From IMG/VR virus record IMGVR_UViG_3300021138_002231, positions 19,936 through 83,935 of that record: DNA of 64,000 bases; one strand, 5' to 3'. The notes under the pieces are model-generated. The model was given only the letters and a program-made list of their open reading frames with translations. It was not told where the DNA came from and searched no databases. Positions 19,506 through 60,610 of the stretch are shown here, piece by piece; position 1 is the stretch's first letter, and the number at the start of each line of letters is the position of its first letter. Made by a program: the position numbers and the translations under genes. The DNA is from a virus.

Positions 19506-19541
19506 AAATAATCATCATTTCTACCATTATGATGATTATTT
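19506..19541 (-). terminator. Hairpin after the subtilase gene
   Basis: Perfect 13-base arms, 19506-19518 and 19529-19541, with a 10-base loop. The right arm overlaps the subtilase stop codon. On the minus strand the stem is followed by TTTT, giving a short U-tract. TTGACT follows immediately and might be a -35 for the signal peptidase gene, but its -10 is weak. Confidence 0.6.
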
Positions 19542-28900: not shown

Positions 28901-31900
28901 TTAATGATTATACAAATAATCCATGATATTCATGTCTACTGGACCATCATCAAGCATAACTGCCCAATCATAAACAATCGCTGGATTAGTTCCTACAGAA
29001 ACAAGAAGTATAGCAAATCTAATATATTGCGATGCCTCGGGTAATTCAAATACTGTATTAGGTGTTATAATGTTATATTGTGTAAAGTCAAAAGTATTTC
29101 CTGCCGTTGGGTCAGTTATATATCCAAAAACAACTTGTCCACCATTGGTAATATAATCGGCAGCTAATAGTCCTCTTCTAATCTGAGGTGCGCTAATATC
29201 ACTAGAATAAATAGATGTATCAAATAATGCAGAGAAGAAGTAACTTGCATTAGCAGATGAATATGTTAAAGTAACATTTTTAATTATTGGTGCAAAATTT
29301 TGAGAAGCACTTGACATGACTAATTTATATTGTAACCATTTTCCAGATAGTGTTGCAATATTAAATGTATTGGTAATATATCCAGTTCCGCCGCTAATTG
29401 TGTCAGTTATATTATTTATATCAAATGGACTACCCCAATCTGCGCTAAGACATTGTGCTCTTGTATTACCAGTTCTAACATAAATTTTAATACCAGTTCC
29501 TTGCATTAATCCATTTCCTACTGTAGCACCGACTGGGTATTGTGCTAATGTAGAAATATTACTCCATGTAGTAAGTGTTGGCGCATAGAATGGTTGAGAT
29601 TCATAAATTGCTTGTTGTTCTATTAATCTATCGGGTGCATATAATGCGCTTGAAACAGATGAAGAGAATATAGCGGCTGTTGATTTATCAGCATGTACTT
29701 GATAAATTGTTCCATTAGATATTTTAACACCGTTAATAGTTGGTGAATCTTGAACAATATCGTCGCTATATCCTGGCAATGGTGTAACATTGCCAGCGGC
29801 ATCTTTAAACAACGCATAAGCGTATCGTTCAGTTTGTCCTATTTGTGATGGATCAAGAATATATAAATTCCCATCAGCTATTCCAGCAAATAATCTTGCT
29901 CCAATATATGCCAAATCACGAACATTATTTGGCAATCCTAAAGATGTAGACGGTACCAATTCTTTAGAAATAGTATTGGAAGACCAGTATAGTTTAATGC
30001 CAGGATGTGATTCTGAACCCAAATAATATTCAATTCTAATAGAAGTCCATTGTCCTGATACCATTGTAGCTATGCCAGTATATTCAGTTATTGATGAGTT
30101 ATTTTTCCATGCGTCAATGATTAATTCCCCTCCTATATATAATCTTGCACCATCGCTAATATCAAGATAGAATGTATAATTTTCACTAGTTGACGTTTGA
30201 ATATATCCTTCCCAAACCGTATTGATATATGAACTGTTAACTCCACTTGGGAAAGTATTATCCCAATTAATAGGTCCGTCTTCTACAATAATTTGATTTG
30301 CGCCAATGCCAACATATTGATAATTAGAAGCATCGGAATTTGTCCATGTGGACATTAATCCTCCAGAAACAATAGAAGGTGAATCAATTGGATAATATGT
30401 ATTGGAATTTGCTACATATCCAATCAATCCTGTATCTGTAGCAGACCAGAAATAATTACCTGACGGATCATCTTCCATAGCATAAAATACATTCGCATCA
30501 CTAACATAACTTTTAGACCAAGATTGAGGTTTGCCATTTGAGAACGATAATTGCATAATGTAGCCATTACTTAATCCAGCATATAATTTACCGTTAGCGG
30601 TCGCATGTAGCAATGTATATACAGCATCTGTATTAGAAGTTAAAGTTAATGTCCATTGTATGTTATCGAATTGATAAATAGCACCAGCATTTAATCCCGT
30701 TACTCCACCAAGCGCGACATATAAATAATTTCCAACCGAAGCAAGTGCGTAAATGTATGGTTGATTAAATGTTCTATTCAATGATAAAATATTATTAGTG
30801 TAATAATAAAGACTAGATTTACCCGACGAATTTGGTCCAGTTCCTATAAATAATGCACTATTATAAGAAGTCAAAGATATAATAGATAATGCGTTTGGTA
30901 TAGTGAATAATGTAGTGTAATTTGCACCAGAATTAGAAGATAACACGACACCATTACTTAAGCCAACATAAAGATTATTTTGATGTATTGTTAAAGCATT
31001 AATAACTATATTTGCGCTTGGAACAGTATAAGTATTTGTTATATTTCCATTTGTTTTGTATAAATAAAGTTTATTACTTGTGGCGATGACAATTCCTGCT
31101 CCAAATTGAATCATTTTCTTAATCTGTCCCGAAACAGAAGCACCTTGTAACTTCCAAGTTTGATTGGAATTAATTAAATTCCAATCAAACTCAGAGAGTC
31201 CATCCTCAATCTGGACCCATCCACTAGAATCAGCACCAGGAAAATCAGTAGCATCTCTAAAGTCACTATATCGTGAAAATTTAGCCGCTACAACTCCAGA
31301 TAATTTATCAGTCGCTGCAATGGAAAGTTTTGCACTTGTATTAGAAGCATAATAGTCACCCTTGTATCGCATTCTAACAGCATAGAGCGACAATGCGGCA
31401 CTAAATGTATATGTATAGTAATCAGTTGTTGCAGAATTTGCTATAATTGTGAATAATGAACTCCAATCATCTGAAGCATTAATTTTAGCTTCAATAATAT
31501 AATTTTTCGGTTTATTAGCTGTAACTCCCACTTCAATAAAAGAAATTTTATCTGCTGGATTATTAAAATAATAAGTTAATGATCTATAGTCATTAATTCC
31601 AAGTAATTCATATTCTCCTGGATTAGTAGCATCTCCAAAATATTGAGCTTTTCTAATTGCAACACCGAATGGGTCTTCAAGTTCAATAGTTCCTTCTGCT
31701 ATTGTTTTAGTAGAAGTCGTGATTAAATAAACAGGAATATCTCCTGTATTATATACCCAGTTAATAATATCTTCACTTTGTGCAGTGACACCTGTTTCTA
31801 AAGCATGTCCCCCTAAAATAATTACTGGATTATTATTACCAATTGGCATATTACTTAATGCCATAACTACCCAATAATTGGTGTTCGATTTTAATGTGTC

Positions 31901-34900
31901 TGTAAATGTAAATGCATATTCAGTGGAACTCGGGGTCAAAGTACTAAATAATAATTGATTAGATGAAGTGCTGATTCTACTTCCAACGGTATTGAAATCA
32001 TCAGAATATAAATACATTTCTATATATTCACTACCGTTAGACGCCAAAGAAGATATTGATAATTTAACTGAAATAGAAGCTAATGTTTCAACACCTGGAG
32101 AGGCAAATTGAAAAGCATAATATTGTGTGTTAAACAATAATTGTTCTGTAACTGATGGTATTGTTGGTGTAGTGTCGGTATAAACAGCAAAATGATGTAC
32201 TTGCATACCACCGCTTCCAGGATTCTCATTGATTATAATATCTCCCAATGGAGGTGTGGTGTCCAGAGATACTTGAGCAACAGGATAACCTATTCTATTT
32301 TCATATAAATCCCCCAATGCAGGATTAATGTTTAATCCTGCCCACACAACAGGGTCAAAAAATATGTCATTGTAATATGAAACAAGATTTAAAACTGGTT
32401 GTGTAAATGAAGCAACCGAATTAGCAGGAATAAAAGAATCAGTTAGATTTCCTGGATTATATGTGACAACAATTTCATCGCCATGTACTACCGAAGAATT
32501 TAAAGTTAATAATATTTGTGTAGGCGCATTAATTGTTTGAGATGTTATAGTAGCCGATGAGCCATTAACTGTAACACCAAAGCCATTTAAAGACGAAGAA
32601 CTAGTCAAAGGAGGAGCGTAAACTTCTGCAAAATTAATAAAAATCTGACTACCATCTATCGAAGTGTATGCATCAAAAAAAATTGGAGCCGTATTAACTG
32701 GACCATTGTTCTCTACAAAAACTGTTGTAGGCTGTAAATAATAATAAGGTGGAGCTGGAGAACTTCCTTTATATATATAACTTGTTGTAGATGCCGATGT
32801 ATAGATTAATTCTACAATTTGATTTCTAGTAATTGGCTGTAATACATTTAAAGATAAAGTATAGGTATCATTTAATGTACTATAACTAATCGAGTTAATG
32901 ACAACATTATTTCCATCAACAACAACACTGAATCCTAAAGGCGAACTAGGTAATACATATTCAGACATTGTAACAATAATGGTTTCGCCATCTGATTGAA
33001 GTGATGCAGTTTTAATGTATGGAGGATTAGAGGACGATGTATTATTTGTAATTGAAACATTGAAATCATAATTTGGCAAGTAATTAACAGGAACATTATT
33101 GTTATAAATATTGTCGCCGTGAGAATTACCAATGTAAGAATCATAACCTAATGTATATACTTTGTTATAACTTGTAGGATTGACACAAGTTAATTTAATT
33201 GTCATAGCCTGTGTATATAAGCCTATAGAATGAAATGAATCTACCTTAGCAGAACTAATATCAAATGGCAAGCCATTTTCCAAAACAAAGAAACCCTCAA
33301 CATTGGCACCAATTGTATGTGGATAAAGATTATAGTAATTATTATAAACACTGACATAAATATATAGTCCATCGTCAGTAGTAGATGCGCTATTAATAAA
33401 AGGTATTGGGTTCAAGCTATTATTTAGTGTTTGAATTTTGCAGCTTGGATATGTAAATGGAGGGAAATCTACATTTAATTCTCTTCCAGTATAAATATTT
33501 GATCCATGCTGATCACCTTTGAAATAATTTGTACCAGAAGATGGGCGGTCATATTGAATATATAATAATTTTGTATTATCAACCTGGTAGGATGTTAATG
33601 ATATAGTATAAACATTAGAAGCTTTACTAAGTGTATATTGTGTACTATCAAGAGATGTAACGCCAGAATCAGTAATTACATTAACATATAAACCATCTGG
33701 GTCAAGTCCACTGACAGTGTTAATATCAGGCATATATGTTAATGTGATTGTTTTGCCATCAATTGCGCAAGATGACGTTGCGATATTATTAAAGACCTGT
33801 ATATCGGTAAATGTTCCGCCATGTAATGCGGTACTGTTAGAATTAGTGATTGGAGTAAATCCAGTTGGATCATAAGAAACATAATAATCTGATTGAGAAA
33901 GAACTCCAGATGTTACAGACAATTCAATAGAACTAAAATTGCCATTAGATGTTTTATATGTAGCAGTAGTAGCAATAACATTACTTTGATTGTCTTTTAA
34001 TGTAAAACCATTAATGGGGCCAGAAGATGGAATAATACCAGGATATTCTGTAAAAAATTGGATATCTACACTAGATTCTGATACATAATTATTATTATCA
34101 AATCCAGTATGTGCAAAAGCCACATAAAATCTATCTAATTCGCTATTATTCTCTGCAACATAACCTGTGAATCCTTGTAATTGTCTAGAAGAGTCTATAT
34201 CTTCAATGGGATATGTTCCAATTGCATAATCTAATGTAACAATATCAGAAGGATATATTGTTGGAGTTCCTAAATCAATCACATAAACGTCTGGGCTTGG
34301 ATGACTTACACTAGTGGTTAAAATTGTAACACTTGTGGTTGATCTTCCAAATGTGCCAGACATTACGTATGAATTAATATTTACTGTAAATCCATCTGGA
34401 TTATTTGGTGTTACGTTATTAAAATCTGACAACGTAACATGAATATATCTTCCATCATTTTGAACAACAACATTAGATAATGTTGGATAAGTATTATTGA
34501 CAACTGATTGGTTTGTAAAGGCGAATAGTTTATTAGCTGGAGTTTGTGAATTAGTAATAGAATTCGAGTTAGTTCCCTGAGGATTAGTTGGATTACTAAC
34601 ATAATAAGAATCTAAATAACTTACAGTTACAGTTCCACCAGCAACTAAATTACTTACAAGATTTAATTGAATAGTTTTTCCAGAAGAATCGCCTGAATAT
34701 TGAATAACACTAGAAACATTAAAAACATTTGTTCCTTGTTTGACTTGCCAAGCAGTATTTAAATCAGTTCCAGTAACGGTTGTTCCAACTGGAGAATTTA
34801 AAATAACTAAAACTTGGCTACCATCATTTGAAGTATATGCATTATCAAAAATTAAATGGCTTTGTAAACTGCTATTTATAGCAGACAAAGGTGTAACCAA

Positions 34901-37900
34901 TGTCGCCATTTGTGTGCCAGACTCTGCTGAAACGACTTGAGATGTTCCTGGAATAGTATATCCAATTGTAACTGAATCTTTATAATAAATAATTGGATTA
35001 GTTATATCTGTTATATTAATATAATATTGATTTAATGCCACTCCTGTTTGATCAATAGTGTAGTTAAGAGTGGTTGGGGAACCCCCTTGAGGAGTATAAT
35101 TAACTGTAAACCCATTTGGACTTGTAGGACTAACGTCAGCATCAAATGTCAAGATAATTTGTGTGCCAGAAGATTGAACAATTGCTGTATTTAAAATTGG
35201 CGCAGCAGCATTATTAACGGCGAATGTTTGAGTGGTTAAAAATCCATATCCTGGACTTGTAGGGGAACCACTAAACGGCCCTGGATCAGTTTGCGCATCA
35301 TGAATTCTTCCACCAGAATTCAAATCTGTATATGTTGCTTGAATTGTGGACCCAGGTGTTAAACTTGAAGCTAAAGTCAATTTGACAACACTATTATTAG
35401 TGCCTTGTAATGTCGCAGATGAAACCCCAATAGAGGATGGGCTTCCACCAACTGTTTCCTGTACACTCCAACAACTGGCTAAAGTGCCTATCGCGGTCAA
35501 ATTAGGTGCTGATGAATTTGAATTAAGATGAACATAAATATAATTGCCGTCTGCACTTGATGTTGTTGATGATGTATTAACTGTTATACTATTAACACGA
35601 CTTCTATTAATAACAGGGAAGCTTGCTGTATATGGAGGAAAACCATTGGTTGTACCAACATAAGCATCTGTTGTGGAATCAAGCGTGTATTGAATTGCCA
35701 CAACATCACTATCATTTAATAAAATTGGCAATTGAATAGTTAAAGTATGGGAGTTTGGTGATAATGTGACAGATGTTGGAGTAACTGGAGAAGAATTGAC
35801 AGTTACTCCGATTCCAGAAGTGGAACTTATATTATTCACAAGAGTAAAAACAATTGTTGAATAAGTTAAACTTGTAGGATTGTCTGATGCAACAAAATCA
35901 GAAGCACAATAATTTAGTAAATTATAAACTTTTTGATTATTAACAGAACTTGGGTTTAATAGATTTCCTAATGAATCTTGAATGTTAGATGTATTTGGAG
36001 GACCATATGAAGAATTATAAGTTACTTTATAATTATCAGTCAAGTTAATACTTTGAGTTGGAATAGTCAATCGGACTGTCTTTGCATCTAATCCTGTGGT
36101 CCCTTTAATTATCTGGGCTGTTGGGGTAACGGTAGTAGAAAATCCAGAACCATGTTTAATAACCCAATTGATAATAGATGGATTAATGATGCTCAAAGGA
36201 GTATTAGATGTATTCAACACAACATCAATATAATTTCCGTCTGGAGTAATTGATGCATAATTAAAAGTTAAATTGTTAGATGTAGAACTATTTGTTACAG
36301 ATATAGTAGAACTAGATAAATACACACTATTATGTATGTCTTTTGTCTTATTTGAATTTGTCGCATTATACGTCAATTGAATCAAATGAGATTGCGCATA
36401 TATAGGACTAGATAAATTAAATTGATATTTTGTTGTATCTACAAGCTTTGTTATTGATGAAATAGTTGAGGTTTTATCGACTCCGTCTACTGTTAGAGTA
36501 AAGCCTTGAACTGATCCAGCAGGGTTGTCTAGAGTGACGTTATCACTAAACGTTAAAACAATATAAGTTCCATCGACGCTTGAAGCAGCACTTGCCATTA
36601 AGGGAGCTATGACATTTGCTATTGGTGCGGCTGTGAAAGATTGCAATTGTTGCACTGGGCTAGATGAGTCTTGAATATATGGAGACGCATGATTGTATGA
36701 TAAAGTTAGTGTATCAGAAGGTGATAGAGCAGCTACGCTGGCTGTTATTTTTGCAGGCGAATTAGATATCACATAAGAAAGCACGGATATTGGTGATCCA
36801 TTTTTATATATTGTAAATTGCGGATTACCTGTTCCAGATTTAGAAATTGGAGGATTTGGAGTTGACAAATATATTGAAATAGACGTTCCTGCACTATCTG
36901 TCGTAGCAGAACTAAAATTTAATAAAGATACAGTACTTAAATTACTCATATTAAATGAGCCATTTTGAATAGACATTCCAGAACGTTCATCTATTAATCC
37001 TAAATAATAATTGGGAGCTGAATAACTTACAGTAATTGTATCAGATGCTTTAATCGGACTTCCTACAATATTTAAAGTAATTTGATTTGCCCATTCAATC
37101 GTTGTAGGCACAGTATATGTGGCAGGGCTTCCGCTAATATAAACCGCAAAAGGTGATCCAGTAATAATAGAACTGTGTGAAATTTCATTAGAATACAGTG
37201 TAACTTGAGTTCCGTCCGCACTAACAATACCATTAAGATGGTCGTTAAAACACACGCAAATAGGATTGTTATTATAATCTTTATTAAAGTTATGTAAAGG
37301 ATTTCCAAGATAACCAGTATATAGATTATTTGATCCACCAGGTTGAGTATATGTTACATATAAAATTTGACCTGTATTTAAAGAACTTAATGTTAAAGTT
37401 ACTATGTCATTATTTGGATATGAATTTAATGATGTTGACGATATTGATATTGGTGAATCAGTTCCATATTCATATACAGCAAATCCTTGTATCGCTCCAG
37501 AACCAGAATATGATAATAAATCAGAAAATATTACTTCAATAGTTTGTTTATCATTTTGCAAATAAGCATATTGAGGTATAGTGTAGCTTGTGCCATAAGT
37601 TGTTGTGGATATACTAATTGGCGATTCAAGTGTTTGTAATCTCACACTTGAATCCGCATAAGCACTCACAGAATCAGAAAGTGATTTATTATAAAATAAT
37701 GTTAAAGTACTTCCAGCTCTGATTAATCTATTTTGATTTAAAACTAATTGAATTTGATTGATACTATATGACGGAGTAAACGCCCAATATGGCATTTTAA
37801 TTCCATCAATATAAATTTCAAAACCAGTATAAGGTAAAGTAGAAGAATAGTTAATATTTTCTGATAATGTTAAATTAACATTGTAAGTAGAAGACGCATA

Positions 37901-38737
37901 TGTTAAGGAAGCACCAGTAATAACTAATTCTTTAGCAGACAACGGTTTATTAGAAAAAGCTGTAGTAAAAGTTCCGCTTGACGCATCTGTAAAATCAGTA
38001 TATAGCAATCCGCCGTCATAGCTAATCGTAAACGTATTATCTATTGTTGGACTTGAAAATGTTAAAATTAGTTGATTTTCCACATATGGACTAATAGTTA
38101 TAGTAGAAGGAATGGCTGTATTTGGCATTCCTCCACCTATAGTCCAGTGCAAATGTAAAGCATTTTTTAAATTAGTTAGATTTCCTATTACTAATCCAGG
38201 ATGTGGCGTCGTGAAATTTAAAAATACTTTTGTTCCATCAGCGCTATAGTGAGCATTAACACATTGAATTTCATCAATAATACTATTATTAATTATTTGT
38301 ATTGGAGAACTTGTATTACTCGTATTTATATCAAAGTTACTTAAAAGTCCCGAAGACGTATTAACTGGATTGCTACCTGGAACACTATAGCTTAATTCGA
38401 CAGAATCTGTGTAATAAACAGAAATCCCAGATGTATTTGTAAAAATAATCTGACTGCCAGTTACTGATGATATATTCCAAGTTACAGATTTTGTGACATT
38501 GGCTATATCTTTTACCGTAATGGTAAATCCGTTAGGCCAAGATAAAGAATTAATTATGGTATCAGATAAGTTTAGTGTTAAACTATTACTGTTTACAACG
38601 GCGCTAATGGGATAGGCACCACTCATAGCCTTAAAATCCAAAGAAGACTTAGCATTCTTTTTACTTAAATTCTTAGTATTTTTTTGGACAATTGAATTGT
38701 CTTCAAAATTTTCTGGAGTTGGTATGTTATCGCCCAT
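28901..38737 (-). CDS. Giant repeat adhesin with about 18 Ig-like repeats and a PA14 domain, 3278 aa
   Basis: The longest gene in the window. Residues about 40-2115 are made of about 18 diverged repeats of roughly 110 residues. Each starts with a '(S/D)DGxxIxVxL' strand and continues with '(N/D)GFxVxV(D/N)G' and '(I/V)xxxDxVxVxY', resembling SWM/SwmB-type or similar surface Ig-like repeats. After this come a linker with LDTTPPLGD, a jelly-roll-like stretch, a beta-propeller (about 2540-2780) and a PA14 domain (about 2805-2930; YTFYLDISDGARLYIGG, then IIDAWKN), which commonly binds carbohydrate. The C-terminal 350 residues are beta-rich. The start has AGGAA 7 bases upstream. It is probably a long fibre or whisker for host attachment. 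Confidence 0.85.
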   Translation of the reverse strand: MGDNIPTPENFEDNSIVQKNTKNLSKKNAKSSLDFKAMSGAYPISAVVNSNSLTLNLSDTIINSLSWPNGFTITVKDIANVTKSVTWNISSVTGSQIIFTNTSGISVYYTDSVELSYSVPGSNPVNTSSGLLSNFDINTSNTSSPIQIINNSIIDEIQCVNAHYSADGTKVFLNFTTPHPGLVIGNLTNLKNALHLHWTIGGGMPNTAIPSTITISPYVENQLILTFSSPTIDNTFTISYDGGLLYTDFTDASSGTFTTAFSNKPLSAKELVITGASLTYASSTYNVNLTLSENINYSSTLPYTGFEIYIDGIKMPYWAFTPSYSINQIQLVLNQNRLIRAGSTLTLFYNKSLSDSVSAYADSSVRLQTLESPISISTTTYGTSYTIPQYAYLQNDKQTIEVIFSDLLSYSGSGAIQGFAVYEYGTDSPISISSTSLNSYPNNDIVTLTLSSLNTGQILYVTYTQPGGSNNLYTGYLGNPLHNFNKDYNNNPICVCFNDHLNGIVSADGTQVTLYSNEISHSSIITGSPFAVYISGSPATYTVPTTIEWANQITLNIVGSPIKASDTITVSYSAPNYYLGLIDERSGMSIQNGSFNMSNLSTVSLLNFSSATTDSAGTSISIYLSTPNPPISKSGTGNPQFTIYKNGSPISVLSYVISNSPAKITASVAALSPSDTLTLSYNHASPYIQDSSSPVQQLQSFTAAPIANVIAPLMASAASSVDGTYIVLTFSDNVTLDNPAGSVQGFTLTVDGVDKTSTISSITKLVDTTKYQFNLSSPIYAQSHLIQLTYNATNSNKTKDIHNSVYLSSSTISVTNSSTSNNLTFNYASITPDGNYIDVVLNTSNTPLSIINPSIINWVIKHGSGFSTTVTPTAQIIKGTTGLDAKTVRLTIPTQSINLTDNYKVTYNSSYGPPNTSNIQDSLGNLLNPSSVNNQKVYNLLNYCASDFVASDNPTSLTYSTIVFTLVNNISSTSGIGVTVNSSPVTPTSVTLSPNSHTLTIQLPILLNDSDVVAIQYTLDSTTDAYVGTTNGFPPYTASFPVINRSRVNSITVNTSSTTSSADGNYIYVHLNSNSSAPNLTAIGTLASCWSVQETVGGSPSSIGVSSATLQGTNNSVVKLTLASSLTPGSTIQATYTDLNSGGRIHDAQTDPGPFSGSPTSPGYGFLTTQTFAVNNAAAPILNTAIVQSSGTQIILTFDADVSPTSPNGFTVNYTPQGGSPTTLNYTIDQTGVALNQYYINITDITNPIIYYKDSVTIGYTIPGTSQVVSAESGTQMATLVTPLSAINSSLQSHLIFDNAYTSNDGSQVLVILNSPVGTTVTGTDLNTAWQVKQGTNVFNVSSVIQYSGDSSGKTIQLNLVSNLVAGGTVTVSYLDSYYVSNPTNPQGTNSNSITNSQTPANKLFAFTNQSVVNNTYPTLSNVVVQNDGRYIHVTLSDFNNVTPNNPDGFTVNINSYVMSGTFGRSTTSVTILTTSVSHPSPDVYVIDLGTPTIYPSDIVTLDYAIGTYPIEDIDSSRQLQGFTGYVAENNSELDRFYVAFAHTGFDNNNYVSESSVDIQFFTEYPGIIPSSGPINGFTLKDNQSNVIATTATYKTSNGNFSSIELSVTSGVLSQSDYYVSYDPTGFTPITNSNSTALHGGTFTDIQVFNNIATSSCAIDGKTITLTYMPDINTVSGLDPDGLYVNVITDSGVTSLDSTQYTLSKASNVYTISLTSYQVDNTKLLYIQYDRPSSGTNYFKGDQHGSNIYTGRELNVDFPPFTYPSCKIQTLNNSLNPIPFINSASTTDDGLYIYVSVYNNYYNLYPHTIGANVEGFFVLENGLPFDISSAKVDSFHSIGLYTQAMTIKLTCVNPTSYNKVYTLGYDSYIGNSHGDNIYNNNVPVNYLPNYDFNVSITNNTSSSNPPYIKTASLQSDGETIIVTMSEYVLPSSPLGFSVVVDGNNVVINSISYSTLNDTYTLSLNVLQPITRNQIVELIYTSASTTSYIYKGSSPAPPYYYLQPTTVFVENNGPVNTAPIFFDAYTSIDGSQIFINFAEVYAPPLTSSSSLNGFGVTVNGSSATITSQTINAPTQILLTLNSSVVHGDEIVVTYNPGNLTDSFIPANSVASFTQPVLNLVSYYNDIFFDPVVWAGLNINPALGDLYENRIGYPVAQVSLDTTPPLGDIIINENPGSGGMQVHHFAVYTDTTPTIPSVTEQLLFNTQYYAFQFASPGVETLASISVKLSISSLASNGSEYIEMYLYSDDFNTVGSRISTSSNQLLFSTLTPSSTEYAFTFTDTLKSNTNYWVVMALSNMPIGNNNPVIILGGHALETGVTAQSEDIINWVYNTGDIPVYLITTSTKTIAEGTIELEDPFGVAIRKAQYFGDATNPGEYELLGINDYRSLTYYFNNPADKISFIEVGVTANKPKNYIIEAKINASDDWSSLFTIIANSATTDYYTYTFSAALSLYAVRMRYKGDYYASNTSAKLSIAATDKLSGVVAAKFSRYSDFRDATDFPGADSSGWVQIEDGLSEFDWNLINSNQTWKLQGASVSGQIKKMIQFGAGIVIATSNKLYLYKTNGNITNTYTVPSANIVINALTIHQNNLYVGLSNGVVLSSNSGANYTTLFTIPNALSIISLTSYNSALFIGTGPNSSGKSSLYYYTNNILSLNRTFNQPYIYALASVGNYLYVALGGVTGLNAGAIYQFDNIQWTLTLTSNTDAVYTLLHATANGKLYAGLSNGYIMQLSFSNGKPQSWSKSYVSDANVFYAMEDDPSGNYFWSATDTGLIGYVANSNTYYPIDSPSIVSGGLMSTWTNSDASNYQYVGIGANQIIVEDGPINWDNTFPSGVNSSYINTVWEGYIQTSTSENYTFYLDISDGARLYIGGELIIDAWKNNSSITEYTGIATMVSGQWTSIRIEYYLGSESHPGIKLYWSSNTISKELVPSTSLGLPNNVRDLAYIGARLFAGIADGNLYILDPSQIGQTERYAYALFKDAAGNVTPLPGYSDDIVQDSPTINGVKISNGTIYQVHADKSTAAIFSSSVSSALYAPDRLIEQQAIYESQPFYAPTLTTWSNISTLAQYPVGATVGNGLMQGTGIKIYVRTGNTRAQCLSADWGSPFDINNITDTISGGTGYITNTFNIATLSGKWLQYKLVMSSASQNFAPIIKNVTLTYSSANASYFFSALFDTSIYSSDISAPQIRRGLLAADYITNGGQVVFGYITDPTAGNTFDFTQYNIITPNTVFELPEASQYIRFAILLVSVGTNPAIVYDWAVMLDDGPVDMNIMDYLYNH

Positions 38738-50769: not shown

Positions 50770-53700
50770 TTATCTCCCTTTATTTCCGATAAAATCAGAA
50801 ATTCCTTCAGTGTTTAAATCATCATTTGTTAATTGGCCTGATTTTAAAAAGACAGAAGGGAATTTTTCTCCTTGAATATGAGATACAATAGTATTATTTT
50901 CTTTATCGAATGTATACTTTACCTGCTTATAAAAATAAGCATCTGTGGCATTTTGTGTTCCATTTAAAAAAGTTTGGATAATAAATTGACCAAAATGGTT
51001 CAACGGACGAGTTACATAGCAATCAAAAGAAATATTTTGATAAGTGTGCTGCAATAGATTATCTAGAGCTTGACCATATTTATTTAAACTTTCTTGATCA
51101 CATAATGTATTTTTAACATCACTGACTGCTACTTTATTATATCCTATATAGCCTTCAAATGTGTTTGAAGGTTTATTAAAAGCATTATTTAAACTCGACA
51201 ACGATTCATAATTATATGCATTGTAATAATCATTTATATAGGTAATAATATTACTGTCTAAAGATTTTCCATACAATCTTAAGCCAGCCTGTAACTGATC
51301 TAAAATTGTATTTACTATATAGGAAGATTTTAAAACACCATGTAAATTTTCTGTTGGGTTTGATGCATCTGTGGAATTAGGCAATAAAATATTGCCATCT
51401 GCATCATAATTTCCTAAAAACTTTAAAGTGTCGATATATTTAGGGTTTTGTCTTTGAACTGTATATATATATTGTTGAATTGGATCATAAAACATAACAG
51501 GCAAACCATTTAAATTAATAATTAATTCTAAAGCATTTTTAGTCACAGATTCAATAGAATTCAATGGCGTACCGAATAGTATTTCTGATGCTATTGGATT
51601 TTCTTGTGGCAAATAAGACAATCTATAATTCATAGCAGTTTCAAATGCCTGTGTCCCTGTTTGACGCGAATACCAGGGTGATAGCCCAGCACATTCTATG
51701 CAAAAATCTAAAATTCTACCATATCTCATTCCTTTAAAATTAAAAGTAGTTCTAAAAGGTATGTCATGAAGCATTTTACTCATTAAATCTTTGGCTTGAA
51801 TCGTTGTTATTGAGCCATTATGAGAATATGTAGTGCTAATAGAGGTAATAATGCCCTGAAAATAAGGTATAGTTTCTCCATACCCAGCGCCTAATGTAAT
51901 GGCAAAAACATTGTTTTCCAATAAATCTAAGATTTTTTGTCCAATAGGATTTGTTGCTATATTATGCAATACAACAGTGGCTGAAGCAGTTAAATAGGAG
52001 CTATTTCTACCTGCCGCTTCGTAAGTAACATCCCAATTATAGAGCCATTCACTAATATCTCCCCATTCTAATGATTTCACTATTTGAGGTGTTGGGATGG
52101 CTGGATTTGAACTTGTTGATGTAATTGTTGTCGTTTTAATCGGTGTTCTTACATGTGAAAATATAGGTCCTTCTATTGTGGTATTAAAATTAATTCTTCC
52201 ATTAACATTTAATATGCCATTTTGTTTATTATATGTATATGTGGCCCCATTTGAATCTGATCTAAACGTGCAATTTAATTCCGATGATGATGATCTATAA
52301 TCACCATGATATGAAGGCATAGTATCCATTTTATCATAGCTATTTCCATTAATTGTATACCTATGTGAATCAAAAGCAGTTTGTATTTCTGTTAAATAAG
52401 ATTGAGTTATTTGATTTAAATCAGCATTTGTATCTTGAGGATATGGATAAGAAAAAGTGAAATTAACATTACCTAAATCGCTTGTATTATTTGTGGAGTC
52501 ATAATTTTCTGGATGATAATTGTTAAAAGCCATAGGTCCATATTCAAATGAACATTGAATATTTGTGAATATAATGTCAATAATACTATCTTCTGGCACT
52601 TTGTGATAGGTATAATTATTATCGTTTGTCCAATCTGCGGGTATTGGATTAAAATTATGCCACGTAACAGTATCAGAACTTGTTGTTCCAAATCCAATCA
52701 ACATTGACGGTCCCACATAATGTACGCAAACATAATATTTATCAAATTTCCCGAATGCATAAATTTCATTAGTAAATTTAATTTTATCCCATTGTTGTTT
52801 TTGAGGATTATAAAATGCCAATTCTGGAGATTTGTCTGGTGTCAATATTAAATTATATTGCGAAATATAATTTGGATCAGGGGTTCCATTTTTACCCCAG
52901 CGAATTACAATACTTGCATTGGAATCTGATATTGCAGGATTTTCATTTTGAGAAAGATCACAATATTGGAATTTTAATTGGAAACCACAATTTATAGAAC
53001 CCTTTGCGTTAATTTTACGTGGTGCTGGCGCGACATTAGCTGTACTTGTAGCGGGATAATATAAATATGCGTTTTCATATGCCAAATCTTTTGAGATTGG
53101 ATATAATCTTTGAACTATAGCTCTATTATTAATAGCATTTACATGTATAGAAGCAGAAGATTGATCAATATTCTGATGAATTGTTGAAATATTATTTGCC
53201 TGAGGTATTGGATTATAAAAAGCTTGATAAATAAAATTATTTTCTGGATAATTTGTCAATTGCCATATATTATATGTTTTATTTATTTGAGCATTAGTAT
53301 AAATATTATTTCTAGATGGTATGTAAGGATATTGTATATTTCCTGTATCTAATTTATCCGCTAAACCAGGATTGGGTTTAGCAGAATTATCGGGTATAGT
53401 CCCATTGTAAGTATTTGGTATATTGGTTCCAGTAAATGGTGGATTATATCCTTTAATTTGAGAATTGCTTAAATATTGATCCGATGCTCCTGGGGCCATT
53501 ATCAGGTTATGTACATTACAAGTTTGGCTTGGTTGTAAGTACCCATAAACATATGTTAAATTAGGGGCCACTAAATGAGGATTTACTTCTGGAATTAAAC
53601 CTCCATTGAATTGAGGCACAGGTTTCAATCTTTCGCTTATTTCTTTGTTGTTATTTATGTAATAATACGTTTCAGGTAAAAGATTATTTCCATCTGGTTG

Positions 53701-53799
53701 AGTTTTATTTCTAGCATAGTATCCATTAACGCTTGGTTTATTTGGGGCATAAATTGCGCCAATAATACATGTACCTATTAATTCTCTTTGATCTGCCAT
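50770..53799 (-). CDS. Baseplate hub-like protein (gp27/late-control D type), 1009 aa
   Basis: The C-terminal half (about 580-1000) resembles tail hub proteins of the gpD/gp27 group. Signs are WGDISEWLYNWDVTYEA opening a hub beta-domain, then VFAITLGAGYGETIPYFQG and a 'GSITTIQAKDLMSKML' segment, the typical 'TI-x-A-x-D-x-x-x-x-L' phrase. The hub would form the ring at the tip of the tail tube. The N-terminal 560 residues are Pro/Asn/Tyr-rich, include a lectin-like beta region around 250-420, and have no counterpart in T4 gp27, so the protein is much enlarged. There is no membrane segment. The ribosome site is weak. The neighbouring terminator at 53838-53872 suggests a new transcript starts here. 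Confidence 0.65.
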   Translation of the reverse strand: MADQRELIGTCIIGAIYAPNKPSVNGYYARNKTQPDGNNLLPETYYYINNNKEISERLKPVPQFNGGLIPEVNPHLVAPNLTYVYGYLQPSQTCNVHNLIMAPGASDQYLSNSQIKGYNPPFTGTNIPNTYNGTIPDNSAKPNPGLADKLDTGNIQYPYIPSRNNIYTNAQINKTYNIWQLTNYPENNFIYQAFYNPIPQANNISTIHQNIDQSSASIHVNAINNRAIVQRLYPISKDLAYENAYLYYPATSTANVAPAPRKINAKGSINCGFQLKFQYCDLSQNENPAISDSNASIVIRWGKNGTPDPNYISQYNLILTPDKSPELAFYNPQKQQWDKIKFTNEIYAFGKFDKYYVCVHYVGPSMLIGFGTTSSDTVTWHNFNPIPADWTNDNNYTYHKVPEDSIIDIIFTNIQCSFEYGPMAFNNYHPENYDSTNNTSDLGNVNFTFSYPYPQDTNADLNQITQSYLTEIQTAFDSHRYTINGNSYDKMDTMPSYHGDYRSSSSELNCTFRSDSNGATYTYNKQNGILNVNGRINFNTTIEGPIFSHVRTPIKTTTITSTSSNPAIPTPQIVKSLEWGDISEWLYNWDVTYEAAGRNSSYLTASATVVLHNIATNPIGQKILDLLENNVFAITLGAGYGETIPYFQGIITSISTTYSHNGSITTIQAKDLMSKMLHDIPFRTTFNFKGMRYGRILDFCIECAGLSPWYSRQTGTQAFETAMNYRLSYLPQENPIASEILFGTPLNSIESVTKNALELIINLNGLPVMFYDPIQQYIYTVQRQNPKYIDTLKFLGNYDADGNILLPNSTDASNPTENLHGVLKSSYIVNTILDQLQAGLRLYGKSLDSNIITYINDYYNAYNYESLSSLNNAFNKPSNTFEGYIGYNKVAVSDVKNTLCDQESLNKYGQALDNLLQHTYQNISFDCYVTRPLNHFGQFIIQTFLNGTQNATDAYFYKQVKYTFDKENNTIVSHIQGEKFPSVFLKSGQLTNDDLNTEGISDFIGNKGR

Positions 53800-53872: not shown

Positions 53873-53978
53873 CGTGTTCTAAATCTCTTTCAATGCGATC
53901 CGTTAATACTGTTAAATCATTATGATCGTATATTTTAAATGATAACAAAGATTTAATCCAATTTATTAGGAATTTCAT
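53856..53978 (-). CDS. Putative 40-aa small protein overlapping the CCA-type gene end
   Basis: A short ORF whose ATG lies inside the last nine codons of the CCA-type gene, in another frame. A GAAGG sequence about 6 bases upstream could be its ribosome site. The peptide starts MKFLINWIKSLLSF and ends in an acidic tail (HEINGE), so it may be a small membrane-associated helix followed by a soluble segment. Its stop codon is in the loop of the terminator. The translation signal is moderate and function is unknown. Confidence 0.4.
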   Translation of the reverse strand: MKFLINWIKSLLSFKIYDHNDLTVLTDRIERDLEHEINGE

Positions 53979-56298
53979 CTGGAGCCTTCTTGGGTGTTTG
54001 CCCATTAATATATTCTGCAAGCCATTGTTGTGCGCCTGGTAAATCATTGAATTTTTGTTCCAATTGAGCTTGCCAAGCAGCATTTAATGCATCGCCAACA
54101 TGTTTTCCTGGTTTATTTTCATAATATGGCAAAATATGCTCGGATTTAATCAATCCTGCTATATTTTTTATGTAATTTCTTAACCAAATAATGCTCTCTT
54201 CTTTGTTATTGATGCGGCCTTCTAATTGAGCTTTATAAGCAGCTTTTTCAATTTCTCCAATATAAGGTCCACCTTTGTAATTAAAATAAGGCATGATATC
54301 AGAACCTTTAATTAATGGTTCAGGTCTTCCTAAATTAGATTTATCTCTTCTAGCCATATCTAACATAATATCAGCAGTTGGGGCATTACCTTTTGGCAAA
54401 GGATGCCTTCCAGAATGATCAGCTTCCATTAAACGATATAAATCTTCAATAGTAGCAGGATATATTTCATCAGCTAATTTTCGTATCTGAGACATATTTG
54501 TAGTTCCTGGTTTATATTGAATGTGCGCTAAATGTCTTTCAACTAAAGGACGCACTCTTCGAATAATATCGTTTTTAACACCAATATTCTTAAGGAATTT
54601 TTCAACTAATGGGCCAGATGCTTCTTCGTGTCCATGAGATGTCCAGCGATAATGTCCTTGTTTTTCTCTAAGAACGGTTGTACCTTCATTTTCTGGATAA
54701 GCTTTTGCCAAATCATGGCCTAAAGCAGAAAATACCAATACTGCTCGATCATCTCCTGATAAACCATCTCTATCAGCAATCCTAGCCGCCTCATTCATTA
54801 CTAAAGATGTATGAAGCCCTACGTCTCCAAACTTAACATGATATGATTCTTGTAAATTTTCAATGTTTTCATTGAAAATTAAACCAAAACTAAATACAAC
54901 ATCATCGCCATTAATATTGAATTTTGGATTGATAATTTGTACTTTATTTTCTAGATGTTCATGTCCCAAAGGATTAGAAGGATCATATGCCAATGAATTC
55001 ATTAAATGTACTGCCGCAGCTTCAATTAAACCCATAACAGCTTGTCGTTCCGCTTTAGCATCGGTCATAATAGAAATAACACGACGAATCGGCATTTCAA
55101 AAAACACTTCTATACTTTTTGAAGCAAATTTTATATATCTATTTTGTTTTGTAGCATGTCGTTTATTGAGAACATTAATCAATAATTCTTTAGTTAATGT
55201 TTCAATTGGCATAGACTGACCTAAAATTGATTTGTATTCATGTAAATCAACAGGAGTTGTAATCCAACCCTCGGGATGCCAAACTGGGTCCTGAGGAACA
55301 TCCATGATATTCTCAATTTCTGGATAAAATTGTATCCAGCCAGTGTCTTTGAGATATTGTAAAGCACTTCCTGGATAACGAGATTTCACTGCTAATTTCA
55401 TCCATTCTTCCATTATTCTTTCTAATGCAAGAGATTTATGTATATCAGTTGCAAAAAATAATTCTGGATTTTCGGGGAATTTCTTATCAGCCTGATTGGG
55501 GAATCTTTTAGTAATCTCTTTTTCGGTGGCTCCAGGATTTTCCTCTAAATAATCTTGAATACGATTGGCTCTTTCATCGAGATAATCTTGAATCATTAAA
55601 TCTCTTCCGCCATTGACGTAATCCTGCATCATTTTAGGGCGCATTTTAGTGTAATCGTCTATCATACGTCTACTTATAGCCGCAGTTTCAGGAGCAATAG
55701 TTAAATTCATACGTCCAGTAAATTGTAATCCGCGTATAACACGCAACGGGTCTTCAGCAAATGCTTCACTCGTATGACGAAGAATTTTATTTTCCAAATC
55801 TTCTCGGCCATTGTAATAATCATGAATCAATTGTCTTTGAGGATCATATGCTAATGCATTAAAAGTAAAATCTCTTCGAGAGGCTGCTTCTTGTGGAGTG
55901 ATGGATTTGTCAAATTCAGTCTTAAATCCTTTGTGTCCAATACCAACTTTACTATCTCTTCGCGGAATAGAAAAATCATAATCATTGCCATCAATATCAA
56001 CAACTTTTATAATGCCAAATTTCTTACCAACCAAATTCATTTTAGAAACAGTTGGACAATTCGCTAGAATAGTAGATAACTCGTCAAATGTTGTATTGTA
56101 AACTTCAATATCTATATCTTTAGGCTGTTTACCCAATAATGCATCTCTCACCGCACCACCTACAATAAGAGGAGGCTTGTTCTCGGCGTTCAAACGCGAG
56201 ATGATGTCTTCAAGTGCAGGAGTCATCGCAATATCCAGACTTTCCCTATACACCTGTTTAGAATTTAAACCTTCTGATAATACTTTTCTATACCACAT
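53953..56298 (-). CDS. CCA-adding/poly(A) polymerase-type nucleotidyltransferase with HD domain, 781 aa
   Basis: The nucleotidyltransferase head lies at residues 30-190. It has GGAVRD (47-52), the metal motif DIDIE (61-65) and RRDFTFNALAYD (about 140-151). The enzyme family adds CCA to tRNA 3' ends. An HD phosphohydrolase domain lies near 500-600, with LGHDLAKAYP near 525 and RHLAHIQ. The protein is almost twice the usual length. Three QDY-containing short repeats lie near 222-250. The C-terminal motif 'G-x-x-I-x-P-Y...G...A-x-x-AQLE', usually single in such enzymes, is present twice (about 663-764). The N-terminus is MWYRKVLSEG. Located among tail genes, it may repair tRNAs or modify a phage RNA. 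Confidence 0.88.
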   Translation of the reverse strand: MWYRKVLSEGLNSKQVYRESLDIAMTPALEDIISRLNAENKPPLIVGGAVRDALLGKQPKDIDIEVYNTTFDELSTILANCPTVSKMNLVGKKFGIIKVVDIDGNDYDFSIPRRDSKVGIGHKGFKTEFDKSITPQEAASRRDFTFNALAYDPQRQLIHDYYNGREDLENKILRHTSEAFAEDPLRVIRGLQFTGRMNLTIAPETAAISRRMIDDYTKMRPKMMQDYVNGGRDLMIQDYLDERANRIQDYLEENPGATEKEITKRFPNQADKKFPENPELFFATDIHKSLALERIMEEWMKLAVKSRYPGSALQYLKDTGWIQFYPEIENIMDVPQDPVWHPEGWITTPVDLHEYKSILGQSMPIETLTKELLINVLNKRHATKQNRYIKFASKSIEVFFEMPIRRVISIMTDAKAERQAVMGLIEAAAVHLMNSLAYDPSNPLGHEHLENKVQIINPKFNINGDDVVFSFGLIFNENIENLQESYHVKFGDVGLHTSLVMNEAARIADRDGLSGDDRAVLVFSALGHDLAKAYPENEGTTVLREKQGHYRWTSHGHEEASGPLVEKFLKNIGVKNDIIRRVRPLVERHLAHIQYKPGTTNMSQIRKLADEIYPATIEDLYRLMEADHSGRHPLPKGNAPTADIMLDMARRDKSNLGRPEPLIKGSDIMPYFNYKGGPYIGEIEKAAYKAQLEGRINNKEESIIWLRNYIKNIAGLIKSEHILPYYENKPGKHVGDALNAAWQAQLEQKFNDLPGAQQWLAEYINGQTPKKAPDEIPNKLD

Positions 56299-56335: not shown

Positions 56336-59300
56336 TTACAATAATGGAATTGGATTACATGTTTGACTTCCATAGATAACTCTTCTTACTTGTAAGTTTG
56401 ATTTGCTGTCCTTGTAATAGACGAATAAATTTCCCTGATACCCAGATTGATTGCTGATAAACAATCCAACTCTTTGTTTCGGAATGTCTAATTCTTGACT
56501 TTGATCTGGAACAATTAAATAACCAGAAGTTTTCATTGCCGCGAAATATGGGTTAGATGGATTTGAACTATCTCCAAAATTATTATTTCCTGCAACAAAT
56601 TGAACATAATCATTCATGGCACCCAAGCCTTGAATATAATCTGTTACTGTAGTAACAAAAACTTTTCCACCACACCAAAATGCACAAAATGTTTTATTTA
56701 AATAGTGATCATATTGTAAATTAATTCCACTTATGGCTATATTTGTAGATGCTATAGTGCCTTTTCTAAAATTAACTATAACATAAGCATCACCAAATGT
56801 ACTTCCGTTAAATTGCCTTGCATACAATAATCCATCTTGTCCTTGTATTGTGTATCCCACTGTTACAATACCATTTTTATTCACGCATAATCCAGGGAAA
56901 GTATTTACGGCATTGCCACTTAATGATCCGAATGGCACTATGGGATTATTATCTGGAATATTTTCTACATTTTTATTTCCATCAACGATATACAAATTTC
57001 CAGGCGCTATATTTCCATTGGAAGGAACAATATTTAAATTTGTTAACTTCAAAATAATAGTTCCTGGTTGAGCATATCCAACAATATATAATATATTTCC
57101 ATTATTAGAAATACATGTTGATATATTTGATAATCCTTGTGTTAATCTGTTTAAATTAACTCCGAACTCAGTATCTAAAAATGTACTATTTGCATTTGAC
57201 CATCTATTTGTCTCTCCATTATATGCATTAACAGCAGTATTAATGGACGGACTAGTATTTTCATCAACTTGTGCTGTTATAGAAAGTAAACTATTAGCTT
57301 TCTGATTTGATTTTGAAAAAGATGTAAAGATCAAATTGGGATTTTTACCCTGCATATATGATGTATTATTACCATTGATTCCACTAATTAATTCATTTTG
57401 AATCACAGGAGAATAATGCATGGGTTGTTTGTAATATCTGATATTAGATATGTTAGAGTTTGTAGATGATATTTCATGGGCTACAACATGAATGTTTTTA
57501 GAAATTTTGTGTTGTGCAGCAGAAATTGAAAACTCTTTTGATGTCACACCAGTTGCTGGAACTGTTCGAAACCATATACTTGATCCAGAATATCCTTGTG
57601 CCCCAAATTTAACTTCCATATTGGAAGGTAAATCAACAAACCATGAAGGCGAATACAAACACCCAGAAATATATAAACCTGGATTTTGAGATACAATTTG
57701 AGTGTTTGTCAAATCACTTGCTGCATGGAACCAAAACATTTGACTATCTAAGGCATTTGCGGGAACTAATGGTAAATCTTCATAAAATGCTGGAGAACCC
57801 AAGACTGAATCATTTTGAGAAATATTAAAACTATACAGTGTGTGCAATTGTAAAGTCAAACTATCAATACGAACACCAAATGGTTTATTTTCTTTTTTAA
57901 GATTATCTTGAATAGTGTTAATATCAAGAATTTTACCGTTTGCAGAATATGGATATGCATATACTCGAATAATGAGTTGCTGACTCGTACTGGACATAAG
58001 AAATGGTATTTGAATATTTAAATTATAAGACACATCACCTCCATTACTTTCTAATAAAGACGATCTAAAAATTCTTTCCATGACTAAGCCGTCAATTGAC
58101 ACTAACATTGCATCGAATCTATATTTACAGGCAATTAAACTTGTATCGCTACCAGTATTAATCGTCATGTCAATTGACCATGTTCCCGTTTGAACTTTAC
58201 CATAATTAAAGGATGAAACATTAGTGCAAAAATCAGCAATTAAAGGATTTCCCAAATCGATAGTTTGTGGAATAGACACATCGTAAGGTATGTAAAACTT
58301 GCCAGATGTGGCTGGAGCTGATTGTAAAGTTGCTAAACCTTCAAAAGAATTTGTAACAATGTTTTGGCCTGTATTAGATTGAAAAATACTATTATATTTT
58401 ACGTAACCCGTTGTATCAGGCGTTAGCACATTGCCCCCGTTTTCGTAATAAGTTGCAGTTAATGGCTGTGCTATTTGGGTGTAGTGGCTTGAATTAAAGT
58501 TATTCGCTTTAACTGGGTATATGCCGCCTGCATTATTATAGGATATTACCTGCGTTAACATAGTAGATGTATTCATATAATTACTATCTATGTTTAATTT
58601 AAATTGAGGCCAGTTAACACTTAAATTATTAATATTTGGCAGTGTTCCATTGTCAGTAAGATTTAATACACTATTCTGATAAATGCCTACTACTAAACGA
58701 CCTCTTTTACCATTAAAAGGCAATGTTAAATTTAATGTATTATTGACATATCTGACTAGATTTAAATAAGATTGAGTATTTGGTAGCGGCGGAGACACCA
58801 AACATTCCGACAAATCGTTTGGTGTTCCCTGAATCAAACTTGTAGTATTATCTGCATTTAACTTGAAATATATTTCTGTTAGATTTCGATAATAATGAGG
58901 ATTATTCATATCTATCGTATAATCTTCAGGAACAAACCAAAATCTGGCATATAAATGTGATGTTGCATAATTACTAGGGTCAATTGAAGCAGCATTAAAA
59001 GATACAGACCAAGGTCCAGGTTCTAATACAACAGGAGATGCATATGGATTAGTGTCGTCTGTACTATAAAATAAAGCTATTGGATTGCTATTTAAAGGAT
59101 TAATATTAACTTGAATTCTTCGTGTAATTGTGCTAATATTTGGTAACATAGATGCTGTAGACACATCCAATAATTTTAAACTATTATTTTCAGTATAAAT
59201 TTGTCCTCTATAAGCAGTACTATTATATTGAGTTCCATCTTTAAGAATTTGAATAATTCTATACCAATCATTAACAGTTCCAGATGTATCCCAGTATAAG

Positions 59301-60610
59301 AAAGGGCTTACCCAAGGTCCATTATTTGTAAAACCAGGCGGATTTGTCACAATATAAGTATTGTTTGTTAAATCTGTCCATGTCGCACTATTAGAAGGAG
59401 GGTTTGCTCCTGGAGTATTAGATTTTTGTATTTTAATAGATGTAACATCACTTCTTAAACTATAATAATCTAAAGGAATTGCCATTCCTTTAAGCAAATT
59501 TGTGGGAGATGATGTCATAGAATATGTAACTGTTCTCTGTGAAGGAGATGGCCCAGTAAAAATAACGAAATAGGTATTACCATCTAAAATATTCCCAATT
59601 ATATCTGTTGCTACAGGAGCGGCAATAACTAAAAATCTTAATGATAAAGAATGAGCAAACCCTGGCGATCCAGTTAGACTATCAGGGTTAAATACTTTAA
59701 CATGAATATTTGGTTTTGTCCCAGACGTTGGTGTAACAGGATTGCCTGATGGATCGTAATAATATGCCACTGGCATAGCATAACCCAACAATGAACAAGG
59801 CAATTGATTACTTCTAATATTAACGCCAGAGGCATTAAAAATCATCATTTTATATAAAGAAAAAGTTAAAGAACTTAATTGATATCTATTAACAAATTTA
59901 ATAGTCTTAAGTATTGGGAATGATGATGCAGAAGATGATGAAGTTATATCTGCAAATTTAACAGTCACAGTAACTTTTGCATACACATTGGTATTTTGTA
60001 AATAATCAGTAACAGACAATCTTAAAAATACATTATCTGACCCTGGTGTTGGATATTCTACTGTCTTACCAGAATTATCCGTGCCTAATATCTGCATAAA
60101 CATATATTTGGACCAATCTATATTCAAATTGCCAGTAGGTTTTTTTTGATATGCTAATAAAGCATTGTAATCATCGCTGCCCTGTTCCATGTGTTGCAGT
60201 ATATTCTCGTCTGTTGCATCAATTATCAAATTGTAAGTAAAAGTTATTGCAGAAATATGAACAGGTGTTTTAATGTCTACTTGCCAGAAAAAATCACTAC
60301 CAGTAACAATACAAGGATCAGTCGGTGTTGAAGCTAAAACATTGGCTGGATCAGCTAATGGTCGAAATGCTGCTAAAATAGGCCAATTTTCTGAGCCTGT
60401 AATACTTTGTAAAGAACCGCCATATGAAATTTGTACGGTTCCATTTGTGTGACCGTTAATAACAGGAATATCATTTCTAAATTTTCCACGTTCAATATCT
60501 GTTGTCAAGTATCCAACGGGCGTTTCGCCGCCAGTAGGTGGTGTTGAGGGCACCCATTGATAATTACCAATAGGTGGTTTATTAGGTGGATTCTGATAAG
60601 GATTAGGCAT
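56336..60610 (-). CDS. Large beta-rich virion protein, 1424 aa
   Basis: No family is recognised. It is a 1424-residue protein rich in Asn, Ser, Thr and Pro with no signal peptide, coiled coil or membrane segment. The N-terminal 40 residues are Pro/Asn-rich and unfolded-looking. The middle contains repeated strands like tail fibre beta-sandwiches. The last 250 residues (SNISTCISNNGNILYIVGYA, and the later TVGYTIQGQDG) read like propeller blades. It starts one base after the stop of the 302-residue gene. The composition matches the other giant tail genes, so a structural or host-binding role is likely. Confidence 0.7.
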   Translation of the reverse strand: MPNPYQNPPNKPPIGNYQWVPSTPPTGGETPVGYLTTDIERGKFRNDIPVINGHTNGTVQISYGGSLQSITGSENWPILAAFRPLADPANVLASTPTDPCIVTGSDFFWQVDIKTPVHISAITFTYNLIIDATDENILQHMEQGSDDYNALLAYQKKPTGNLNIDWSKYMFMQILGTDNSGKTVEYPTPGSDNVFLRLSVTDYLQNTNVYAKVTVTVKFADITSSSSASSFPILKTIKFVNRYQLSSLTFSLYKMMIFNASGVNIRSNQLPCSLLGYAMPVAYYYDPSGNPVTPTSGTKPNIHVKVFNPDSLTGSPGFAHSLSLRFLVIAAPVATDIIGNILDGNTYFVIFTGPSPSQRTVTYSMTSSPTNLLKGMAIPLDYYSLRSDVTSIKIQKSNTPGANPPSNSATWTDLTNNTYIVTNPPGFTNNGPWVSPFLYWDTSGTVNDWYRIIQILKDGTQYNSTAYRGQIYTENNSLKLLDVSTASMLPNISTITRRIQVNINPLNSNPIALFYSTDDTNPYASPVVLEPGPWSVSFNAASIDPSNYATSHLYARFWFVPEDYTIDMNNPHYYRNLTEIYFKLNADNTTSLIQGTPNDLSECLVSPPLPNTQSYLNLVRYVNNTLNLTLPFNGKRGRLVVGIYQNSVLNLTDNGTLPNINNLSVNWPQFKLNIDSNYMNTSTMLTQVISYNNAGGIYPVKANNFNSSHYTQIAQPLTATYYENGGNVLTPDTTGYVKYNSIFQSNTGQNIVTNSFEGLATLQSAPATSGKFYIPYDVSIPQTIDLGNPLIADFCTNVSSFNYGKVQTGTWSIDMTINTGSDTSLIACKYRFDAMLVSIDGLVMERIFRSSLLESNGGDVSYNLNIQIPFLMSSTSQQLIIRVYAYPYSANGKILDINTIQDNLKKENKPFGVRIDSLTLQLHTLYSFNISQNDSVLGSPAFYEDLPLVPANALDSQMFWFHAASDLTNTQIVSQNPGLYISGCLYSPSWFVDLPSNMEVKFGAQGYSGSSIWFRTVPATGVTSKEFSISAAQHKISKNIHVVAHEISSTNSNISNIRYYKQPMHYSPVIQNELISGINGNNTSYMQGKNPNLIFTSFSKSNQKANSLLSITAQVDENTSPSINTAVNAYNGETNRWSNANSTFLDTEFGVNLNRLTQGLSNISTCISNNGNILYIVGYAQPGTIILKLTNLNIVPSNGNIAPGNLYIVDGNKNVENIPDNNPIVPFGSLSGNAVNTFPGLCVNKNGIVTVGYTIQGQDGLLYARQFNGSTFGDAYVIVNFRKGTIASTNIAISGINLQYDHYLNKTFCAFWCGGKVFVTTVTDYIQGLGAMNDYVQFVAGNNNFGDSSNPSNPYFAAMKTSGYLIVPDQSQELDIPKQRVGLFISNQSGYQGNLFVYYKDSKSNLQVRRVIYGSQTCNPIPLL

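Follow-up and report, generated by a model that had tools for sequence, protein, structure and literature searches.

The 64,000-nucleotide stretch of DNA analysed here (the window; G000:C1:19936-83935, within an IMG/VR virus record of 83,935 bases) encodes on its minus strand, at 53953..56298, a class II tRNA nucleotidyltransferase of 781 amino acids with an HD domain, in which the C-terminal tail is present in two copies. The tail duplication is real and old, and a few related large phages were the only ones in which we saw the double-tailed build; the bacterial relatives that we checked lacked it. The catalytic parts are ordinary and the duplication marks a small phage clade, while a long insert in the HD domain and an N-terminal MWY start were less to be expected.

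An HD-containing class II enzyme with two tails

The sequence-only reading had described a 781-residue enzyme of the CCA-adding type; the length is correct, and Pfam, PHROGs (match: tRNA nucleotidyltransferase), the motifs and the class II fold of solved structures agree on the type. The nucleotidyltransferase head (PF01743, residues 45-174, 55777..56166, minus strand; Pfam E 2.8e-23) carries GG..RD, DxD and RRD, with motif residues at 47-63 and 141-143, and is followed by the EDxxR motif (EDPLR, residues 182-186, 55741..55755, minus strand), to which an excerpt of PMC7014341 assigns a nucleotide-template role. All these motifs are intact, and so are ERxxxE and the residues of the HD domain. 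The HD phosphohydrolase domain (54418..54813, minus strand; Pfam HD at 496-612, E 5.6e-7) contains H496, H528-D529, H557, H589 and D627, all conserved in 84/84 rows having a letter there, among the matches listed. In the comparison with class II nucleotidyltransferases that the reading had proposed, fold and motifs were shared, and the best solved matches were class II CCA-, CC- and A-adding enzymes (Z about 20-26, maximum 26.4, over 370-400 residues). With the head motifs, EDxxR and the head-neck-body-tail fold all present, the window protein is thus a class II tRNA nucleotidyltransferase with an HD domain. The head loop, as judged from sequence, has the same length, 33 residues, in 81 of the 84 aligned proteins among the matches listed, including the window protein, and bacterial CC-adding enzymes lack the flexible head loop according to the same excerpt of PMC7014341. 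Together, EDxxR and the full-length loop favour CCA addition or repair as the predicted activity, and the window enzyme probably adds CCA.

The two tail copies lie where the reading had placed them, with GSDIMPYF at residue 665 (window 54306) and SEHILPYY at residue 719 (window 54144), and the Trp-Leu helix noted after each copy is found as WL(R/A)(N/E)YI behind both. Copy 1 spans residues 662-711 (54166..54315, minus strand) and includes, at 662-704, the C-terminal part of PF13735 (tRNA_NucTran2_2 tail part, 1.9e-6); copy 2, delimited by self-alignment and AlphaFold2, spans residues 716-765 (54004..54153, minus strand). The local alignment of the two tails gave a BLOSUM62 score of 101 over 49 gap-free columns, and none of 5000 shuffled tail pairs reached this value (mean 23.6, SD 4.7, maximum 51). 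Furthermore, in the AlphaFold2 model of the window protein (77 sequences, mean pLDDT 85.6, tails mostly 78-97), the predicted helices of copy 1 (665-672/678-692/699-714) are matched by a corresponding trio in copy 2 (719-726/732-746/753-766).

The solved class II enzymes aligned with this model up to about residue 714, i.e. tail 1, and left tail 2 without a counterpart. The tail 1 sequence found one match each in 3wfo (residues 453-509 of 525; we take 3wfo-3wfs to be the Aquifex aeolicus CC-adding enzyme) and, weakly, in 1miv (348-394 of 404, E 0.52). These single stretches, and the 79 of 84 aligned proteins in which the tail is single, cut or absent, bear out the earlier statement that the segment occurs once in known enzymes. 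The one-tail module is usual, though not formally defining, for bacterial HD-containing CCA enzymes, and the window protein departs from it with two copies.

Distribution and age of the double tail

A single-sequence query with the full protein found no relative in the viral and genome contigs, and an alignment query was needed for relatives. We used 80 of 124 viral and 80 of 570 bacterial matches, as listed, and added two GenBank phage proteins; the alignment holds 84 proteins and has 85 rows, since one split gene takes up two of them. Two tails were found in 5/84 aligned proteins among the matches listed, namely the window protein, L009, L010 (divergent), L011 and L012, and a later search with the tail pair revealed L174, close to L012, as the sixth. 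Beyond the window protein, double tails are present in at least five further phage records. Since at least six phage proteins carry the duplication, it is a variant of a phage lineage and not a singleton. A rough tail HMM gave two matches in 3 of 168 proteins; it missed the divergent L010, and the second part of L011 lay outside that set. The tail pair used as a query against GenBank phages gave no match.

Bacterial homologues with the same duplication, which the reading had named as the observation that would count against it, were sought in 491 genomes of two phyla, and no gene with two tails was found with the tail-pair profile at E <= 0.001, a threshold at which divergent tails are missed. 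A tail match was obtained in 251 of these genomes (129/297 in the phylum of the Acidobacteriota assembly L089 and 122/194 in that of L094, Verrucomicrobiota), with one match in each, the sole exception having two matches on separate contigs. Each bacterial match covered at most 234 bases, and two tails would need about 320.

In a tree of 99 rows, built by a quick method and without the E. coli-type phage rows (L002, L003 and L004), a branch with an SH-aLRT of 98 sets the six proteins with double tails apart from all others. The nearest cellular group, among the matches listed, is made up of the Acidobacteriota proteins L089, L090 and L091, each with a single tail of the same MPYF/LPYF type. 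The mean identities in five phages were 0.42 between first copies, 0.36 between second copies, 0.33 between the two copies within a phage and 0.31 between copies 1 and 2 across phages, values that would fit a single duplication preceding the divergence of these phages. The identity between second copies is weak evidence, being barely over the within-phage value on about 50 columns, and copy 1 of the window protein (P0001) has an identity of 0.46 to each of the two copies of L009; the age of the duplication therefore rests mainly on the clade.

Inserts in the neck and the HD domain

As for the unusual build claimed by the reading, the tail duplication stood, the QDY repeats taken as a second duplication did not, and the largest extra piece, an insert at residues 345-490, was missing from its list. 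QDY occurs at residues 225, 237 and 248 and DDY at 214 (window 55557-55659), all within one long helix predicted by AlphaFold2 at residues 203-253 (55540..55692, minus strand), so that the triplets reflect spacing along a helix and not duplicated sequence; this one-helix prediction and the 11/12/11 spacing ruled out a tandem duplication. The triplets are held by a lineage-specific neck insert (residues 213-289), which places 77 residues between the flanking columns; among the matches listed, most other proteins have 4-9 there, L010 has 91 and L026 has 50.

The insert in the HD domain is a stronger oddity than the QDY helix, and is common only to the window protein and one collinear 379-kb phage. 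HPEG, located by alignment at residues 341-344 (55267..55278, minus strand), opens the signature HPEGDVxxHT, and is separated from GDVGLHT by about 146 in-frame residues (345-490, 54829..55266, minus strand) in the window protein and by about 170 in L009, while the relatives have an unbroken HPEGDVxxHT among the matches listed. The two inserts are homologous, as their protein alignment scored 134 and shuffles at most 60, and codon position two is the most conserved in the inserts of both genes. A search with both inserts recovered L009's record alone, and no other gene in six phage records matched them. The insert modelled alone, from two sequences, gave a mean pLDDT of 51.9 and no structure match at E <= 0.001, and was thus uninformative. 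Other elements break up the insert site (window 54829-55266) in L011 and L007.

A mobile-element remnant, with this codon stretch as a homing site, might be considered as the origin of the insert, since in L011 the same HPEG codons are broken by a segment with a NUMOD3-like, endonuclease-like ORF (weak NUMOD3), and in Vibrio phage 11895-B1 the CDS is annotated in two parts, broken at HHPE by an intervening segment. However, the insert reads through in phase with the gene and is conserved at the protein level, as seen from its alignment score and second codon positions; Rfam revealed no intron in the window gene, L011 or L007; and the end residues of an intein are absent. We thus regard such a remnant as very unlikely. 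Inteins have a nucleophile as the first residue and His-Asn at the end; the insert starts with W and ends with KF (P0001) or TI (L009), and an intein was rejected. A group I intron was likewise rejected for the window gene, L011 and L007, where Rfam gave no match of that kind.

Proposed role and known systems

We consider it fairly probable that the window protein is a phage class II CCA-adding or repair enzyme, used mainly for tRNA repair, whose elbow-anchoring tail was duplicated once in a large-phage lineage and so gave the enzyme two tandem anchor modules. The head and neck would add nucleotides to tRNA 3' ends, the HD domain would trim damaged ends, and the C-terminal tail would anchor the tRNA elbow (T-psi-C/D loops) as in studied enzymes; elbow binding by the tail of known class I and II enzymes is described in the excerpted part of PMC3925840, which presents the structure of the Aquifex aeolicus CC-adding enzyme. 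The second tail may provide a longer or steadier grip on the tRNA, or hold cut or unusual tRNAs, and the main job of the enzyme would be the repair of tRNAs during infection. If tail 2 is a working anchor, nature has supplied in this enzyme a test of the way tRNA is gripped by class II enzymes while nucleotides are added. In that case it would also hint at tRNA repair being remodelled by phages so as to resist attacks on tRNA.

Repair fits better than maturation because the tRNA genes of related phages mostly encode CCA already, 30 of 34 in the 379-kb relative G001 and 19 of 23 in G004. Together with the RNA ligase (PF09414) and RtcB of G001 and the RtcB of G003, this suggests repair rather than maturation. 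The 83,935-base record of the window, a fragment, yielded no tRNA gene and no RNA ligase or RtcB match. In G001, two CTA-anticodon tRNAs lie by a tmRNA (L214 14691-14858, ARAGORN), and TAG is still the stop codon of 23/259 ORFs of at least 150 residues. In G002 and G003, a second nucleotidyltransferase-like gene (about 350 residues, VVGGFPRD) is conserved just upstream of the CCA gene.

Equally, tail 2 could form a contact within a dimer, or it could be neutral. A module that serves dimerisation or protein contacts without a tRNA-binding role would be in line with the drift of copy 1 in L011 and L012, where copy 2 retains AWxAQ and the copies are thus not equivalent; however, both copies appear in the model to keep the helical pattern of a tRNA-binding tail, and we consider this alternative unlikely.

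The N-terminal MWYRKVL of the enzyme (56278..56298, minus strand) is a case of a shared MWY[KRV] start. WY[KR] at residues 2-4 was found in 20 of 1140 genes predicted by greedy ORF calls in six records, against 0.12 expected, and in no gene of G002 or G003. When MWYV was also accepted, along with starts lying as many as 40 codons into an ORF, MWY[KRV] starts amounted to 25 proteins of 16 families in four records, with no detectable similarity past the first 12 or so residues; examples are window 56278-56298, L169:11972-12256 and L169:13413-13832, and others lie in G001, G004 and G005. At the DNA level, the MWY[KR] pattern occurred 8 times in G001, 11 times in G004 and 4 times in G005 (reversed control 1, 1 and 0); eight records were searched, and the remaining five showed no excess. 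Hits in ORFs of 7-27 residues (L176, L179, L182, L185 and L198) and perhaps internal ones (L178 and L195) were excluded as gene starts. L011 has NWYRKAQ inside its ORF. The tagged G001 proteins include one with an InPase domain and a PcfJ-like one, and ten further tagged proteins or neighbours gave nothing above the Pfam cut-off. A literature search by title found none on a phage leader of the MWYK/MWYR type.

The record is collinear with G001, in which 46 of its 52 predicted genes have a BLAST match (1e-5), mostly in order. In both, the CCA gene lies between the same two large genes, of 1424 aa (56336..60610, minus strand; 40% over 1454 columns) and 1009 aa (50770..53799, minus strand; 37% over 1076 columns). 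In G004 these two are side by side and the CCA gene is elsewhere, so its location is not old. The 1009-residue protein and a nearby one of 1199 residues gave no match in GenBank phages, and a 2342-residue gene of the block has virion structural and tail-fibre family matches. Elsewhere in the window are DnaK-like and DnaJ-like genes (11577-13322 and 17092-18147; by eye, from the sequence start), near them a signal peptidase (18914-19399) and a subtilase (19540-20460), and a 3278-residue protein (28904-38737) whose G001 counterpart of 1654 residues aligns to the C-terminal half only. Several proteins share a recurring N-terminal segment of about KIAxxxDxxGxxxEAD (L169:2662-3222, L169:7233-8009, and genes close to the CCA gene in G004 and G005).

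The MWYR start may, speculatively, be a delivery tag, by which the enzyme would be packaged in the virion and enter the cell together with the DNA, to act early in tRNA repair. Such a leader is conceivable since the first 10 residues of T4 IPIII suffice for packaging (PMC9026906, in excerpt) and zincin, pyrophosphatase and ART domains are among those described for polyvalent proteins that are injected (PMC5512222, in excerpt). The excess of the start over expectation and its spread over 16 unrelated families fit this possibility, as do the tagged InPase-domain protein, the location of the CCA gene, which lies in one shared block of very large genes in both G000 and G001, and the fusion of the double-tail enzymes L010, L011 and L012 to a metallopeptidase-like HExxH segment (HEITH/HEAEH). 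However, this segment was spotted by eye and has no Pfam match. Polyvalent injected proteins combine several disparate domains, and a fusion was seen only in these three relatives. The displaced CCA gene of G004 also argues against delivery; both immediate neighbours lack a Pfam match, the 1009-aa one also lacks a PHROG match, and the virion and tail-fibre match is found only in the more distant 2342-aa gene. The shared start might instead reflect translation initiation. Delivery of the enzyme thus seems quite unlikely to us, and we are similarly doubtful that the large phages of this group mark unrelated proteins, the double-anchored enzyme included, with an MWY[KR] virion leader so that repair starts at DNA entry. 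The recurring start nevertheless provides a simple, testable handle on how these phages might sort proteins.

Compared with known systems, the enzyme read as a repair enzyme with two anchors shares the head-neck-body-tail order, motifs and fold of bacterial class II CCA-adding enzymes (1miv from Bacillus stearothermophilus; 3h37/5hc9 from Thermotoga maritima), which in contrast have one tail and neither the 146-residue insert nor the QDY helix. The presumed Aquifex aeolicus CC-adding enzyme (3wfo) gave the top Z, tied with several others, and the segment matching window tail 1 is its only tail; the head loop of the window protein is absent in CC-adding enzymes. The Acidobacteriota HD-containing enzymes L089, L090 and L091 have the same MPYF/LPYF tail type, but a single tail and an uninterrupted HPEGDVGxHT. 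Finally, the CCA-adding enzymes of jumbo phages, for which the excerpts of PMC7824862 and PMC3622015 mention neither tail duplication nor inserts, have likewise been proposed to act in tRNA repair or maturation in large phages: the former groups them with RNA repair, and the latter proposes that the RaK2 enzyme, with RNA-repair proteins alongside, matures the tRNAs of RaK2.
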